The position numbers and the translations under genes were made by a program. The notes under the pieces were generated by a model. It was given only the letters and a program-made list of their open reading frames with translations. It was not told the origin of the DNA and ran no database searches. From an uncultured bacterium (GTDB lineage: Bacteria; Bacillota; Clostridia; Lachnospirales; Lachnospiraceae), in NCBI GenBank assembly GCA_905214855.1, contig CAJMNU010000011.1:1-26200 (forward strand): a DNA stretch of 26,200 nt, in the 5' to 3' direction. Positions 4,972-10,290 of the stretch are shown piece by piece. How positions within the stretch are numbered: the stretch's first letter is position 1; the number at the start of each line of letters is the position of its first letter.

Positions 4972-5172
4972 TTACTTATTTGCAAGATACTCATTCACAG
5001 AATCTACTACTGTATTCACATCCAGTCCGTGTACCATACAAGCCTCTTCCAGAGACTCCATCTGTGCGGATGGGCATCCTAAACAATGCATTCCCACTCT
5101 CATCAGAATAGGTGCAATTCCCTCATCCAAACGAACCAGATCACCGATCAGCATATCTTTATTAATCTGCAT
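4972..5172 (-). CDS. DUF1858 domain-containing small protein
   Basis: A 66-residue protein with the DUF1858 pattern: an opening 'INKDMLIGDLV', then a middle MRVGMHCLGCPSA with two cysteines in a CxxC spacing, then a helical end. Stand-alone DUF1858 proteins are common in anaerobic Firmicutes, and the same domain is found at the N-terminus of ScdA-type iron-sulphur repair proteins and next to hybrid-cluster proteins. The biochemical role is not established; binding of a metal, sulphur species or redox partner through CLGC is only an inference. AGGAGG stands eight to nine bases before the ATG, and the gene has its own promoter and terminator, so it is a single-gene unit. Confidence 0.8.
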   Translation of the reverse strand: MQINKDMLIGDLVRLDEGIAPILMRVGMHCLGCPSAQMESLEEACMVHGLDVNTVVDSVNEYLANK

Positions 5173-5327: not shown

Positions 5328-5996
5328 CTATAAGGTATCCAAAATAGTAAAAGAATTACGCTCAAATTTCAGAATTCCCTCATCACGCAATTTACTCAGT
5401 TCCACTGACATCGCACTCCTGTCCACATTCAGATATTCTGCAAGCTGCTGCCTGTTAAATGGGATCTCAAACTTGAGGCTCTTCTGCCGTTTTGACTCAT
5501 CAGACAGATACGAAAGTAATTTATTCCTTGTTGTCTTTTGGGAGGTATGTTCAATCTTCTTCATCAATACCTGATTTGCCTCTGCCATCACTTGGAGCAG
5601 ATTGTGGATCAACTGTGTATGGCTGAAACATGCCTTGGAACAAACCCCCAAAATATTCTTTACATTCAAAAATGCGACAACCGTTTTCTCAGAAGCGATC
5701 ACTCCAAAAGATAATGTCTCTTTATTCATAAAAGCAAAACTTTCACCAAAAGGCTGTCCCTCCTCCATTTTTGCCAAAATGGTACGGTTTCCCCAGATAT
5801 CTTCCTTTACAATATATACACTTCCCAAAAGGATCAGACCAAACTTTTGTAATTTCTCACCCTCCCTGAAAATGTAGTCCCCCTTCTCATATTTTAATAT
5901 CTGAGGTCTTTGACATTCTAATGTATGTAATATCTCCTCTTCCTGCATTCCTGTAAAAATAGGTGAATTTCTCAACTGAAGTAAATAATCTCTCAT
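5328..5996 (-). CDS. Crp/Fnr-family transcriptional regulator
   Basis: A 222-residue protein with an N-terminal cyclic-nucleotide-binding-like beta-roll (about 10-120) and a C-terminal winged helix. The roll has GDYIFREGE, LILLGSVYIVKED and EGQPFGESFAF, which are phosphate-binding-cassette-like positions. The helix-turn-helix reads FNRQQLAEYLNVDRSAMS near 175-192. Three cysteines (two in GVCSKACF near 120-126, one near the N-terminus) do not match the FNR cluster pattern, so the signal is unknown. ATG 5996 is chosen over an upstream in-frame TTG at 6059, which has no ribosome site; even the chosen site (GAGGGAAAGAG) is modest. The gene diverges from the pyruvate formate-lyase operon across about 315 bases, so it is a good candidate for that operon's regulator, as Crp/Fnr proteins often control fermentative genes. 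This link is inferred from position. Confidence 0.88.
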   Translation of the reverse strand: MRDYLLQLRNSPIFTGMQEEEILHTLECQRPQILKYEKGDYIFREGEKLQKFGLILLGSVYIVKEDIWGNRTILAKMEEGQPFGESFAFMNKETLSFGVIASEKTVVAFLNVKNILGVCSKACFSHTQLIHNLLQVMAEANQVLMKKIEHTSQKTTRNKLLSYLSDESKRQKSLKFEIPFNRQQLAEYLNVDRSAMSVELSKLRDEGILKFERNSFTILDTL

Positions 5997-6190
5997 TTTT
6001 TCTCTTTCCCTCTTCCTTAAAGAGCCTTCCAACCGAAACTTATAACACAAAAAGTCCAATCAGAAAGCAAAAAATCTGTACTATTCTCTATATTGTTCCT
6101 TTTTGTATATTAAAAAAAACAATTTTTCTTCTTTTTTGTTGTATATCTAACAGACTTGATGGAAATATTCTATTATAATACAGATAATCA

Positions 6191-6223
6191 GTCAAGAAAA
6201 AATTTTCGTCAGACCTTCTTGAC
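6191..6223. promoter_or_regulatory. Inverted repeat (candidate operator) overlapping the pfl -35 box
   Basis: GTCAAGAA (6191-6198) and TTCTTGAC (6216-6223) are perfect 8-base inverted repeats with 17 bases between them. The right arm contains most of the -35 hexamer, so a protein bound here would touch the promoter directly. The adjacent Crp/Fnr protein is the obvious candidate, although the arms do not resemble the E. coli CRP or FNR half-sites. Confidence 0.5.
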
Positions 6224-6247
6224 GTGTATACAATATCCAATTATAAT
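6219..6247 (+). promoter_or_regulatory. Promoter of the pyruvate formate-lyase operon
   Basis: TTGACG (6219-6224), a 17-base spacer and a perfect TATAAT (6242-6247) form one of the strongest promoters in the window. Transcription would begin near 6254, leaving a leader of about 58 bases before the ATG at 6312. The strength agrees with the highly expressed codon choice of the first gene. Confidence 0.8.
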
Positions 6248-6311
6248 AACTCTGTATTTAACTCTTAAACCATACTACAAAATAGAGAACAATAGGAGGA
6301 GGATTTACCCC

Positions 6312-8372
6312 ATGAGACCAGAATGGACAAATTTTAAAGGCGGCGTATGGGAGCGCGAAATCAATGTTCGTGACTTCATTCAGAAGAACTATACCCCATA
6401 TGACGGAGATGACACTTTCCTTGTCGGTCCCACACAGAATACAACAGATTTATGGAACCAGGTACTGGAGTTATCCAAACAGGAGCGTGAAAAAGGCGGT
6501 GTCCTTGATATGGATACCAAGGTGATCTCCACGATCACTTCCCATGGACCGGGTTATTTAAACAAAGACAAAGAGACCATCGTTGGTTTCCAGACTGATA
6601 AACCATTCAAGCGTTCCCTGCAGCCTTATGGCGGTATCCGTATGGCAGTAAAAGCTTGTCAGGATAACGGATATGAAGTAGACCCAGAGATCGTTGAATT
6701 TTTCACTACTCATAGAAAGACACACAACGCTGGTGTATTTGATGCATATACTCCAGAAATGCGTGCTTGCCGTTCCAGCCACATCATCACTGGACTTCCG
6801 GATGCATATGGTCGTGGACGTATCATCGGCGACTACCGTCGTGTCGCACTGTACGGTGTTGACCGTCTGATCGAAGATAAGACAGAGCAGAAGAATACAA
6901 CTCGTACAATTATGTATTCTGATGTTATCAGAAACCGCGAAGAATTATCTGAGCAGATCCGCGCACTTCAGGAACTGAAGAAACTGGGTGAGATCTACGG
7001 TTATGATATCGGAAGACCTGCTGAAAACGTAAAAGAAGCAATCCAGTGGACATATTTTGGATACCTTGCAGCTGTAAAAGAGCAGAATGGTGCTGCAATG
7101 TCCCTTGGACGTACTTCCACATTTATCGACATCTATGCTGAGCGTGACTTAAAGAACGGAACATTTACAGAGGAGCAGATCCAGGAGTTCGTAGACCACT
7201 TCATCATGAAGCTGAGACTTGTAAAATTTGCTCGTACTCCAGAATACAATGCACTGTTCTCCGGAGACCCAACTTGGGTTACAGAGTCTATCGGTGGTGT
7301 CGGCATTGACGGTCGTCACATGGTAACAAAGATGTCCTTCCGTTACCTGCACACACTGTCCAACCTTGGAACTGCTCCAGAGCCAAACCTGACTGTTCTT
7401 TGGTCCACAAGACTTCCGGAAAACTTCAAACGTTTCTGTGCTAAGACTTCCATCGAGTCCTCTTCCGTTCAGTACGAGAACGATGACTTAATGCGTGTAA
7501 CACATGGCGATGACTATGCGATCGCATGCTGTGTATCTTCCATGAGACTTGGTAAAGAAATGCAGTTCTTCGGCGCTCGTGCAAACCTTGCAAAATGTCT
7601 CCTTTACGCAATCAATGGTGGTGTAGATGAGATCACAAAGAAACAGGTTGGTCCTAAGTACCGTCCGATCACTTCTGAGTATCTTGATTATGATGAAGTA
7701 ATGGATAAGTACAAAGATATGATGCAGTGGCTGGCTCGTGTTTATGTAAACACATTGAACATCATCCACTATATGCATGACAAATACTGCTATGAGAGAA
7801 TCCAGATGGCTCTTCATGACAAAGAGATCACACGTTGGTTCGCAACCGGTATTGCAGGTCTTTCCGTAGTAGCTGACTCCCTGTCTGCTATCAAATACGC
7901 AAAGGTTAAGACAGTCCGTGATGAAAACGGTATCGTTGTAGATTACGAAGTAGAAGGTGATTTCCCGAAATACGGAAACGATGATGACCGTGTAGATCAG
8001 ATCGCTTCTGAGCTGGTTCACACATTCATGAACTATGTAAGAGGAAACCACACATACCGTGGCGGCAGACCTACTACTTCTATCCTTACCATCACATCCA
8101 ACGTTGTATATGGTAAGAATACAGGTTCTACACCAGACGGAAGAAAAGCAGGCGAGCCATTCGCTCCAGGTGCAAACCCAATGCACAGACGTGACAGCCA
8201 TGGTGCAGTTGCATCCTTATCTTCTGTTTCCAAGCTGCCATTCCGTGACGCACAGGATGGTATCTCCAATACTTTCTCCATCATCCCGAACGCACTTGGA
8301 AAAGATGATGTAGTATTTGCAGGAGATCTTGATGTAGACTTAGATCTGGATCTTAGCAACAACGACAAATAA
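6312..8372 (+). CDS. pflB: Pyruvate formate-lyase body lacking the glycyl radical domain
   Basis: A 686-residue protein matching formate C-acetyltransferase (pyruvate + CoA to acetyl-CoA + formate, cytoplasm). The N-terminus '[19 protein letters not shown]' and the catalytic cysteine pair in [10 protein letters not shown] (Cys406-Cys407) followed by [12 protein letters not shown] are classical PFL. Full PFL is about 740-760 residues; this one stops after [11 protein letters not shown] and a short acidic tail (DVDLDLDL). It therefore ends exactly where the C-terminal radical domain would begin. That domain, with RVSGYAV, is encoded separately at 8732. The end is a clean pair of TAA codons followed by a non-coding spacer, not a frameshift. 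ATG 6312 has GGAGGAGG nine bases upstream; an upstream open extension lacks support. Alone it could not hold the glycyl radical. Confidence 0.95.
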
Positions 8373-8391
8373 TAACTATATAAACAAAACA

Positions 8392-8406
8392 GGATCTAAA
8401 TGATCC
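8392..8406 (+). other. Small hairpin between the lyase body and the 88-residue gene
   Basis: GGATC (8392-8396) and GATCC (8402-8406) can form a five-pair stem with a five-base loop in the 74-base spacer. There is no proper T-tract, so it is not a strong terminator. It might affect RNA processing or relative expression of the lyase pieces. Confidence 0.3.
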
Positions 8407-8446
8407 CCTTGTATCTTTGTCAATGACGCTGAAAGGAGTCTGCCGT

Positions 8447-8713
8447 ATGGGAGATAAAAACAAAGAAGAAAAAATTGATGACATTGTCGCCATGATTGAT
8501 CAGTTTATGTCAAACAACGGCGGACATATGAATATACAAGTCGATGCTTCCGGCACAGTTACTGCCGAAAAGACTGTACAGACAACCAATTCTCTGGAAT
8601 GTGCTGCCGGAGATATGGCATGTAAAGTTCCTACTCTCTTTGAGGGTATGGATCTTTCAGAAGATACAGAAGAACAGCACGATGATTACAATTATAACCA
8701 TCACGAAGATTAA
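8447..8713 (+). CDS. Radical-domain-like small protein lacking the glycine loop
   Basis: An 88-residue acidic protein with no function I can name. Residues 9-32 (KIDDIVAMIDQF, then NGGHMNIQV) closely follow the first 30 residues of the separate glycyl radical protein encoded next ([12 protein letters not shown], then [10 protein letters not shown]). It then diverges: no RVSGYAV loop is present, two cysteines appear (ECAAGDMACK, residues 52 and 59), and the end is rich in Asp, Glu and His (DDYNYNHHED). It thus looks like a duplicated radical domain that lost the radical site. It could dock on the lyase body as a placeholder, assembly or protective factor, but this is inference. AAAGGAG eight bases before ATG 8447 decides the start over an earlier in-frame TTG and ATG. 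The next gene begins 18 bases after its stop. Confidence 0.85.
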   Translation: MGDKNKEEKIDDIVAMIDQFMSNNGGHMNIQVDASGTVTAEKTVQTTNSLECAAGDMACKVPTLFEGMDLSEDTEEQHDDYNYNHHED

Positions 8714-8731
8714 CTAAAGGAGGGCTTTATT

Positions 8732-8974
8732 ATGTCTATTAGCGAAAATCAAATTGATAACCTGGTATCCTTGTTAGACGGATATGCAGAAAAAGGCGGA
8801 CATCACTTAAATGTCAATGTATTTACAAAGGAAACTCTTCTGGATGCACAGGCACATCCTGAGAAATATCCTCAGCTGACCGTTCGTGTTTCTGGTTACG
8901 CTGTAAACTTCATCAAACTGACAAAAGAGCAGCAGGATGAAGTTATCTCCAGAACTTTCCACAACAATCTGTAA
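8732..8974 (+). CDS. Stand-alone glycyl radical domain of pyruvate formate-lyase (GrcA-like)
   Basis: An 80-residue protein equal to the C-terminal domain of PFL. It has GGHHLNVNV at residues 22-30, then [19 protein letters not shown], with the radical glycine at residue 55, and ends [16 protein letters not shown], as normal PFL does. E. coli GrcA (YfiD) and phage T4 Y06I are separate proteins of this type that rescue oxygen-cleaved PFL, but there the main enzyme keeps its own domain. Here the lyase body has none, so this protein should be the essential radical subunit, loaded by the downstream PflA. AAAGGAGGG stands about eight bases before ATG 8732. The start coincides with where the PFL chain resumes after a short linker, so both halves look natural. 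I leave the symbol empty because grcA implies a repair role only. Confidence 0.93.
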
Positions 8975-8986
8975 AATTTGAGCTGA

Positions 8987-9102
8987 CAGGAAATCTTTCC
9001 TGAAGGACAATCTTGATGCCTGCAACGGGCTGATCTTGACAGCATCTTTTTCACCGCTGCAGTGCAATTCCCCATAGTGCCTGACATTCCTTGTCAGGCA
9101 CT
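8987..9102 (+). terminator. Run of hairpins between the radical subunit and pflA
   Basis: The 208-base spacer holds several stems: CAGGAA/TTCCTG (8987-9002), a GATGC...GCATC pairing followed by TTTTT (around 9015-9051), and AGTGCCTGAC/GTCAGGCACT (9076-9085 with 9093-9102) followed by TAAACTATTTATT. The second and third look like partial terminators. They would lower pflA relative to the abundant lyase proteins, as often seen where a catalytic activase follows its target. Confidence 0.55.
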
Positions 9103-9182: not shown

Positions 9183-9947
9183 ATGACGGGTCAAATCCAT
9201 TCTATCGAGAGTTTCGGAACCGTTGACGGACCGGGAGTCCGTATGGTTGTCTTTACCAAAGGCTGTCCTATGCGCTGCCAGTACTGCCATAATCCTGATA
9301 CATGGCAGTTTGATGGGGGAACTGAGATGACCACGGATGAAATTCTGGAACAATATGCAAGAAATAAGACATTCTACCGCAGCGGTGGTCTTACTGTCAC
9401 CGGCGGAGAGCCAATGGTACAGATGGCATTTGTCACAGAGCTTTTCGAAAAAGCCCACGCACAAGGTATCCATACCTGTCTGGATACATCTGGTATCATG
9501 TTTCATCCTGACAGCCCTTCCAATATTGAGCAGGTAGATGCCCTTCTCGCAGTTACCGATCTGGTCATGCTTGATATCAAACACATCGATCCAACAGAGC
9601 ATCAAAAACTGACAGCACAGCCAAACCAGAATATTCTTGCGTTTGCCCGCTATCTGTCCGAAAAACAGATTCCTGTCTGGATCAGACATGTTGTAGTCCC
9701 TGGGATCACAGATGATCCAAACTGGCTCTACCAGCTTGGGCATTTTATCGGAACACTCTCCAATGTGAAAGCCTTGGATGTCCTTCCTTACCATGATATG
9801 GGCAAGACCAAATACCATGAGCTTGGTATCCCGTACCCGCTTGAATCGCTCAAACCTCTTTCCCGTGAGGATGCCCTTGCTGCAAAAAAGATCATTCTTT
9901 CTGGGATTCGTGATGAGCATACTTGTACCGAAAAGAAACCAATTTAG
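9183..9947 (+). CDS. pflA: Pyruvate formate-lyase activating enzyme (radical SAM)
   Basis: A 254-residue radical S-adenosylmethionine enzyme. The cluster motif is CPMRCQYCHNPDTW (CxxxCxxC, cysteines near residues 29, 33 and 36), preceded by the PFL-activase signature ESFGTVDGPGVRMVVF. The GGEP SAM-binding motif follows near residues 75-78. The length fits the family (about 245-260). It uses a reduced [4Fe-4S] cluster to split SAM and abstracts hydrogen from the PFL glycine, which here lies on a separate 80-residue protein. It must therefore recognise a free radical domain or a body-domain complex. GGAG eleven bases before ATG 9183 supports the start. A ferredoxin gene follows 87 bases after the stop and may supply the electron. 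Confidence 0.95.
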   Translation: MTGQIHSIESFGTVDGPGVRMVVFTKGCPMRCQYCHNPDTWQFDGGTEMTTDEILEQYARNKTFYRSGGLTVTGGEPMVQMAFVTELFEKAHAQGIHTCLDTSGIMFHPDSPSNIEQVDALLAVTDLVMLDIKHIDPTEHQKLTAQPNQNILAFARYLSEKQIPVWIRHVVVPGITDDPNWLYQLGHFIGTLSNVKALDVLPYHDMGKTKYHELGIPYPLESLKPLSREDALAAKKIILSGIRDEHTCTEKKPI

Positions 9948-10034: not shown

Positions 10035-10205
10035 ATGGCATACGTAATTAATGATGGATGTGTATCCTGCGGCGCTTGTGCTGATGGATGTCCAGTTGGC
10101 GCTATCTCTGAGGGAGACGGCAAATATGTGATCGACGCTGATACTTGCATCGAGTGCGGTTCTTGTGCAGCTACTTGCCCAACAGGTTCTATTGAGCAGG
10201 AATAA
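10035..10205 (+). CDS. 2[4Fe-4S] ferredoxin
   Basis: A 56-residue protein with two bacterial ferredoxin motifs: CVSCGACADGCP (residues 9-20) and CIECGSCAATCP (residues 38-49). Each has the CxxCxxCxxxCP spacing that binds a [4Fe-4S] cubane, and the size is that of clostridial ferredoxins. It carries low-potential electrons in the cytoplasm. GGAGGT stands about nine bases upstream of ATG 10035. Its place directly after pflA suggests that it reduces the activase cluster, although it may serve general metabolism (pyruvate:ferredoxin oxidoreductase, hydrogenase). A very strong terminator follows at once, so it is the last gene of the unit. Confidence 0.95.
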   Translation: MAYVINDGCVSCGACADGCPVGAISEGDGKYVIDADTCIECGSCAATCPTGSIEQE

Positions 10206-10209
10206 TTCT

Positions 10210-10290
10210 GACAGTTGCATAATGGCTTCCCCATATGACTAATATATGGGGAAGCCATTTTTTTAATACATAAGAAAGCCTGTAACTGTC
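10210..10290 (+). terminator. Strong terminator after the ferredoxin gene, inside a wider inverted repeat
   Basis: AATGGCTTCCCCATAT (10221-10236) and ATATGGGGAAGCCATT (10244-10259) pair perfectly over 16 bases with a seven-base loop, followed by a T-run to 10264. An outer pair, GACAGTTGCA (10210-10219) and TGTAACTGTC (10281-10290), brackets it with one G-T pair. It ends the pfl-ferredoxin unit. Confidence 0.92.

Follow-up and report, generated by a model that had tools for sequence, protein, structure and literature searches.

The DNA analysed here (the window) is a 26,200-nucleotide stretch of contig CAJMNU010000011.1 from an uncultured member of the Lachnospiraceae (GenBank assembly GCA_905214855.1), and our subject is a cluster of forward-strand genes in it that encodes a pyruvate formate-lyase (PFL) divided between separate chains. 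The first gene (6312..8372) encodes a 686-residue catalytic body that has no glycyl radical domain and closes in a short acidic tail devoid of cysteine; codons 7527..7532 specify its active-site pair Cys406-Cys407, equivalent by motif to C418-C419 of the Escherichia coli enzyme. An 80-residue, cysteine-free radical subunit with the motif RVSGYAV is encoded at 8732..8974, its radical glycine being Gly55 (codon 8894..8896; E. coli G734). Between the two lies the gene of an 88-residue protein (8447..8713; hereafter the middle protein), which combines the docking half of a radical domain (residues ~7–34) with a cysteine motif (C-x6-C-x2-P-T, codons Cys52 to Cys59 at 8600..8623) and an acidic tail, and lacks a radical glycine loop. 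A PFL-activating enzyme of the radical S-adenosylmethionine (SAM) type follows at 9183..9947 (TIGR02493, 297 bits; cut-off 232). Each of the first three genes has its own ribosome site (AGGAGGAGG at 6294–6302 for the body, AAAGGAG at 8432–8438 for the middle gene and AAAGGAGGG at 8716–8724 for the radical subunit), and tandem stops (TAATAA) close the body gene.

Body and radical subunit read as one PFL cut in two. Against the PFL model TIGR01255, the body matched model positions 2–665 of 744 (1105 bits) and the small protein positions 664–744, so the cut falls where the glycyl radical domain begins. By this match the body is a PFL in overall sequence and fold, and an activase of its own, as expected of a PFL, is present in the window; the radical domain that a PFL carries on the same chain is here the separate 80-residue protein. 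Translation and model match thus agree with the initial annotation, made from the sequence alone, which had described both a body ending where the radical domain starts and a separate radical protein with its own ribosome site, and had placed them, as well as the cysteine pair and Gly55, correctly. The small protein scored above the cut-off of the NCBI family NF038360, named GrcA3 (170.2 bits; cut-off 158), and below that of the GrcA/YfiD equivalog TIGR04365, which includes a long N-terminal part (93 bits; cut-off 170).

The initial annotation had proposed looking for the split in other genomes, and there it recurs: we analysed 130 distinct split loci, the window included, and the order body, (often) middle gene, radical gene is repeated in the 129 others. 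Loci came from a scan in which the body was the query against GTDB genome contigs (the best 80 of 587 relatives were kept) and from further genome searches; all were picked by similarity to the window or to locus L021, not randomly. From a starting set of 180 loci plus the window, we dropped 8 duplicates, 11 fused PFLs and 2 loci that end before the position of the radical gene (L017, L022). Another 31 without a recognised body end were set aside, comprising 10 fused PFLs (L089, L150, L153, L155, L157–L162), 4 partial ones (L163–L166), 14 other glycyl radical enzymes (L167–L180), two cut loci (L076, L078) and L130, which was later restored. Record titles of the split loci name Lachnospiraceae, Oscillospiraceae, Erysipelotrichaceae, Collinsella, Atopobiaceae and Spirochaetales, along with other groups. 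Body and radical genes keep together in Lachnospiraceae, Oscillospiraceae, Erysipelotrichaceae, Collinsella kin and Spirochaetales. Because the same gene order recurs in 129 other loci, an artefact is excluded; a frameshift, a stop mutation and a sequencing or assembly error were each rejected on this ground, which upholds the initial view that no simple mutation had divided the gene. Both Cys406 and Cys407 are kept in all 129 aligned split bodies, with the proviso that the pattern used to pick bodies already required the first cysteine of the pair.

We also looked for a full-length pflB in the genomes of relatives, at a threshold of at least 60% identity. Of the 30 split-locus genomes searched (many of them metagenome bins of unstated completeness), 29 yielded no other PFL at this level, including Ruminococcus bicirculans (G024), whose locus record is titled as a complete sequence; the exception, Claveliimonas bilis (G025), has an extra full-length PFL. 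Weaker matches in these 30 genomes (27–41% identity) were taken as other glycyl radical enzymes. In larger draws of related genomes, split and fused forms were counted by eye from tables. In the family of R. bicirculans, 65 of 100 genomes had a match: 14 of them were split, 43 were fused (counting fragments), 2 were unclear and the remaining 6 had other enzymes only. In the class of Collinsella, 39 of 119 genomes had a match, of which 29 were split and 6 were fused, while 4 had other enzymes only; no second PFL-type match was found in the 14 or the 29 split genomes. In the family of a Blautia (G007), at least 89 of 189 genomes with a match (of 250) were split, a lower bound, the fused ones being uncounted; 3 of the 89 listed had a second PFL-type match (E 1e-90 or better), in two cases shown as fused (G260, G247). 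The spirochaete G021 was the sole split genome among 42 with a match in its phylum (149 genomes). Since 29 of the 30 relatives have no other close PFL, the small protein must supply the radical, as the initial annotation had supposed in making the enzyme depend on it. Judged by gene content, the split is conserved and the small protein must be obligate for the enzyme. A second lone radical subunit occurs in the genome of Lachnospiraceae bacterium 28-4 (G023, the source of locus L052), where a 79-residue protein (L184:1926–2165, minus strand; GrcA3, 162 bits) is encoded away from the pfl cluster, on a separate contig, next to a gene that resembles polynucleotide phosphorylase when judged by eye; this protein is a possible extra cartridge for the same body.

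The middle protein had 70 homologues in a search of 5.8 billion proteins, without a Pfam domain, and the few that bear names are called hypothetical or uncharacterised. Its head (IDDIVAMIDQF...GGHMNIQV) aligns with that of the radical subunit (...GGHHLNVNV). The alignment of the middle family to the radical-subunit docking half had an hhalign probability of 96 (E 4.5e-9, 29 columns), BLAST of the two window proteins gave E 6e-6 (a single comparison), and on whole genomes the middle-family profile also matched radical-subunit heads (E 6e-7 to 2e-4). The protein therefore holds a helix and strand homologous to the part of the radical domain that docks on the body, and is predicted to dock likewise. 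The RVSGY-type glycine loop is absent and the cysteine motif stands in its place, so that the protein looks like a counterfeit radical domain with thiols replacing the glycine. Invariant residues in 46 aligned middle proteins are Asp18, His27, Cys59 and Pro62, and the motif is CxxCx6C in 29 of 60 middle genes and Cx6C alone in 20. From the docking histidine to the last cysteine the median distance is 30.5 residues (26–48, 56 loci), a loose match to the 30 residues from His25 to Gly55 in the window's radical subunit.

Other searches placed the middle protein in no further family. It scored 17.9 bits against NF038360 and is no member; when the middle family was searched against Pfam and the PDB, the radical domain alone rose above chance-level matches; and no iron-sulfur subunit family appeared among the Pfam matches of 46 members (E up to 0.1) or the PDB matches listed. 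A structure model (46 sequences) had a mean predicted local distance difference test score (pLDDT) of 61, too weak for placing an arm, and a Foldseek search with it returned nothing at E 0.001. The initial annotation had noted that a gene lies between body and radical gene and had missed that this gene belongs to the system, as a radical-domain mimic with a cysteine motif. An unrelated insertion was rejected by its conservation, its docking-half homology and its mutual exclusion with a cysteine tail (below). Small proteins of 63–112 residues with a weakly similar head and differing cysteine tails (GCCHMYGRPASETVALLDMYTD; HGRCDIGSPFADG) were also seen at L181:741–962 (minus strand), L182:633–824 (plus strand) and L183:712–1050 (minus strand). 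The second lies directly before an activase gene for class III ribonucleotide reductase (NrdG2, 214 bits), a neighbourhood that hints at a wider class of radical-domain look-alikes.

A cysteine motif like that of the middle protein sits on the tail of the body in other species, a feature that the initial annotation had missed. Among the 130 split loci, the dithiol is carried by a middle gene in 60 (56 recognised by pattern and 4 by eye, L081, L087, L114 and L118, each with at least two cysteines) and by a body tail with at least two cysteines in 64; none has both and 6 have neither, so that 124 of 130 have one dithiol element. No tail cysteine occurs in the 60 middle-gene loci and no middle gene in the 64 cysteine-tail loci. 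Examples after ALGK are CSNGACGTPTLFEGLD, DCACCEPN and a C-terminal CGCC, and by spacing the 64 tails include CxCC (20), CxxC (12), CxC (9), Cx4C (8) and CC (5); the ending PTLFEGLD is common to some middle proteins and some body tails. The pattern extends beyond the loci: in genomes of our choosing, all 16 with a middle gene gave full-length middle-family matches, and no such match came from the 13 cysteine-tail genomes, the single genome with neither element or the 20 whose PFL is exclusively fused.

A quick maximum-likelihood tree was built from 142 bodies, of which 129 were split, 11 were fused and 2 were undetermined (L130 is outside the trees and the pair test), and comparison along it indicates that the switch between middle gene and tail happened repeatedly. 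The middle-gene state changed 12 times and the tail state 14, numbers that are approximate because many branches are weak. Seven independent pairs could be drawn on supported branches; on average 6.5 changed in opposite directions and none in the same direction (sign test, median p 0.016, range 0.016–0.063). Eight fused PFLs (L021, L025, L066, L091–L095) form one clade nested within the split clade, as seen against three fused outgroup rows only, and none of them has a cysteine after ALGK or, within the DNA covered, a middle-like gene. Re-fusion thus appears to go with loss of the arm. Five body residues (Lys305, His398, Ser410, Cys429 and Arg451), with conservation of at least 90% across 129 split bodies and seldom seen in 11 fused ones, were candidates for split-specific positions and were rejected; 7 re-fused PFLs retain nearly all of them, which makes them marks of the clade and not of the split. 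One of them, Cys429 (7596–7598), close to the substrate-binding stretch, is a cysteine in 129 of 129 split, 7 of 7 re-fused and 1 of 11 other fused PFLs.

The loci with neither element are L067, L068, L124 and L129, which have near-identical Collinsella-type bodies, L130 of the same class (left out by the selection pattern and, on recheck, split with neither element) and L072. A middle gene elsewhere in the genome was not found in G028, the source of one of these Collinsella-kin loci. As split bodies without a locus dithiol, the five Collinsella-kin loci are a natural test case for the need of an arm.

From these comparisons we infer that a body with a detachable radical domain usually needs a dithiol arm, which would most likely guard or re-reduce the active-site cysteine pair. 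In PFL, the activase must turn Gly55 into a radical, and catalysis needs that glycine beside the cysteine pair. The sequence shows body and radical domain encoded by separate genes that are clustered with the activase gene; judging by gene content, the activase would radicalise the small protein docked on the body, and the two would then act as an ordinary PFL. The split body is accompanied, with the exceptions above, by a dithiol on its own C-terminal tail or on a middle protein that carries a copy of the helix and strand used in radical-domain docking. When the radical cartridge is absent, damaged or changing, the dithiol arm would enter the empty site and guard or re-reduce the exposed Cys406-Cys407, leaving the large body reusable; for the window, this would make the middle protein a place-holder alternating with the cartridge. 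We give this whole account, of a separate-chain PFL with an obligate, replaceable radical subunit and a guarding or re-reducing arm, an even chance of being correct. An extended form seems to us possible and somewhat doubtful: cartridge and arm would take turns in one active site, one for catalysis and the other for keeping or restoring the thiols, with the arm gained on splitting (as a tail or a counterfeit domain) and lost on re-fusion, and the six of 130 as later losses or exceptions.

Several points weigh against this account. Because PFL turns over without an outside reductant, re-reduction by an arm would be of use in repair only. Because six split loci have no dithiol near the genes, the dithiol is not absolutely needed; the sign test exceeds 0.05 for some choices of pairs; and the histidine-to-cysteine distance is only loosely that of the radical glycine. 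Although the cysteine parts have low confidence in the models, as expected of a flexible arm (in a tailed body, L013, with a predicted template modelling score of 0.75, residues 651–699 fall below pLDDT 50, too weak for placing the arm), low confidence is weak evidence for flexibility. A metal site would also be compatible with the middle family, in which three cysteines are frequent and one histidine is invariant. Finally, E. coli PFL trimmed to residues 1–695 binds and activates the autonomous radical protein YfiD poorly (PMC8683613), so the docking half may outweigh the cysteines.

Four other explanations deserve consideration. The body gene might be a relic and the 80-residue protein an ordinary GrcA spare part serving a full-length PFL elsewhere, as the family name GrcA3 and the genomes with both forms (C. 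bilis, 1 of the 30, as well as G260 and G247) would allow; we consider this highly improbable, given that full-length PFL was not found in the 29 other relatives, that split bodies keep the active-site pair and that body and radical genes stay together across families. It is quite unlikely that the dithiol is a radical quencher, which on exposure to oxygen would donate a hydrogen atom to the glycyl radical, form a disulfide and spare the cartridge from cleavage. Neighbouring thiol pairs are good hydrogen donors, and the last cysteine of the middle protein is roughly as many residues away from the docking strand as the radical glycine is; a cheap replaceable cartridge, however, lessens the need for quenching, and our data fit re-reduction equally well.

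A regulatory subunit that binds metal (zinc or iron-sulfur) and controls the opening of the radical site, with no part in thiol chemistry, is another reading of the middle protein or tail that we think unlikely. The CxxCx6C motif of 29 middle genes and the family-invariant His27 would suit such a role, and the six-cysteine tail of class II ribonucleotide reductase both binds zinc and transfers electrons (PMC5704485), but the number and spacing of cysteines vary widely across the 64 tails and 60 middle genes, and, as noted, iron-sulfur subunit families are missing from the Pfam matches. The variety of cysteine spacing, the weak models of the arm and the thiol-tail precedent of ribonucleotide reductase make a flexible thiol arm more likely than a fixed metal site. 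Similarly improbable is a middle protein that acts mainly as a docking or recognition element in trans, providing the helix and strand missing from the split body and helping the cartridge to bind or be activated, with the cysteines secondary. This idea draws on E. coli PFL, in which residues 696–733 are needed for good binding and activation of YfiD and were proposed as its recognition element (PMC8683613); the split body stops before this region, and the middle protein copies a stretch reaching into its first part. Against it, the radical subunit has its own copy of the helix and strand, and 64 of 130 split loci keep the cysteines without a docking half beside the body, which makes the cysteines the common denominator. 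Since the split body ends before residues 696–733, split lineages must have solved recognition otherwise, and the middle protein may be part of that solution.

Small iron-sulfur, cysteine-bearing subunits occur in benzylsuccinate synthase and 4-hydroxyphenylacetate decarboxylase, the large subunits of which keep the radical domain; these are likewise small cysteine-bearing partners, and none showed a sequence match to the middle protein among the matches listed. The nearest known counterparts of the radical subunit are E. coli GrcA/YfiD and phage T4 Y06I, which are also autonomous glycyl radical domains homologous to the PFL C-terminus and working with a PFL body and activase. They rescue an oxygen-cleaved or inactive full-length PFL (PMC8683613, PMC12338860), whereas the window body has no radical domain whatever and the small protein is the only radical source found; it also lacks the 60-residue disordered head of YfiD. 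Because activation of YfiD in E. coli went undetected without a cleaved PFL body (PMC8683613), activation probably takes place, by analogy, on the complex of body and cartridge. For the arm the parallel is ribonucleotide reductase, in which C-terminal cysteine pairs reach the active site of a radical enzyme and deliver electrons to it (PMC5704485), an analogy of working and not of homology; ribonucleotide reductase uses electrons in each turnover and PFL does not.

The solved sequences closest to the window body are PDB entries 38lb and 38la, both named formate acetyltransferase (1177 and 1157 bits). Chain A of 38lb continues past ALGK into a tail with a CxxC motif (GECDMC), and an Atopobiaceae split body scores higher against it (1318 bits); because this CDMC tail follows ALGK, a laboratory seems already to have solved a split-like body, and by its sequence 38lb looks like a split body. 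Entry 38la, perhaps a trimmed construct, stops immediately after SLGKE. No radical-subunit chain for either was found in the PDB search. Both are absent among the 50 matches listed from the library of 8 April 2026 and were probably released after that date. Already known, then, are the GrcA3 family, which covers the small protein by score and by its name treats it as a cofactor protein, and two solved split-like bodies (one possibly trimmed). Of the split PFL itself, the middle protein and the dithiol pattern we found no description in the open-licence literature.

The remaining features of the cluster concern its expression and electron supply. A promoter-like site (TTGACG-17-TATAAT, 6219..6247, plus strand), identified by consensus match only, has 11 of 12 consensus bases and lies 5' of the body gene. 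A perfect 11-bp stem-loop without a T run, read directly and not listed by the hairpin scan, stands between the radical subunit and activase genes (9076..9102, plus strand) and could set the first three proteins higher than the activase. Downstream is a gene for a two-cluster 4Fe-4S ferredoxin of 56 residues (10035..10205, plus strand), which may donate electrons to the activase; this gene is followed by a strong terminator-like hairpin (10221..10259, plus strand; 17 pairs and a T run). Across the loci, a radical-SAM motif lies within 1.5 kilobases in 53 of 66 split loci with room for one, and a ferredoxin motif within 3 kilobases in 22 of 63 loci. Adjoining the cluster is a divergent gene for a Crp/Fnr-type regulator (5328–6059, minus strand) with cyclic nucleotide monophosphate-binding and Crp-like helix-turn-helix domains, and at 4972–5172 (minus strand) lies a gene for a 66-residue protein with the 'hybrid cluster protein-associated redox disulfide' domain (TIGR03980, 90.8 bits).

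Many anaerobes depend on PFL as a main route for breaking down pyruvate and producing formate, and oxygen destroys its radical. In our comparisons a dithiol element, whether arm or partner protein, almost always accompanies the split form across gut bacteria. Annotation is touched as well, the solved bodies being named formate acetyltransferase and the named relatives of the middle protein hypothetical proteins. Nature's own switches among fused, tailed and three-gene forms make it directly testable what such an enzyme requires once its glycyl radical domain is detachable. If common gut bacteria do use a replaceable radical subunit, oxygen damage would cost them 80 residues and not a whole enzyme, and views of the oxygen tolerance and formate output of gut bacteria would change.

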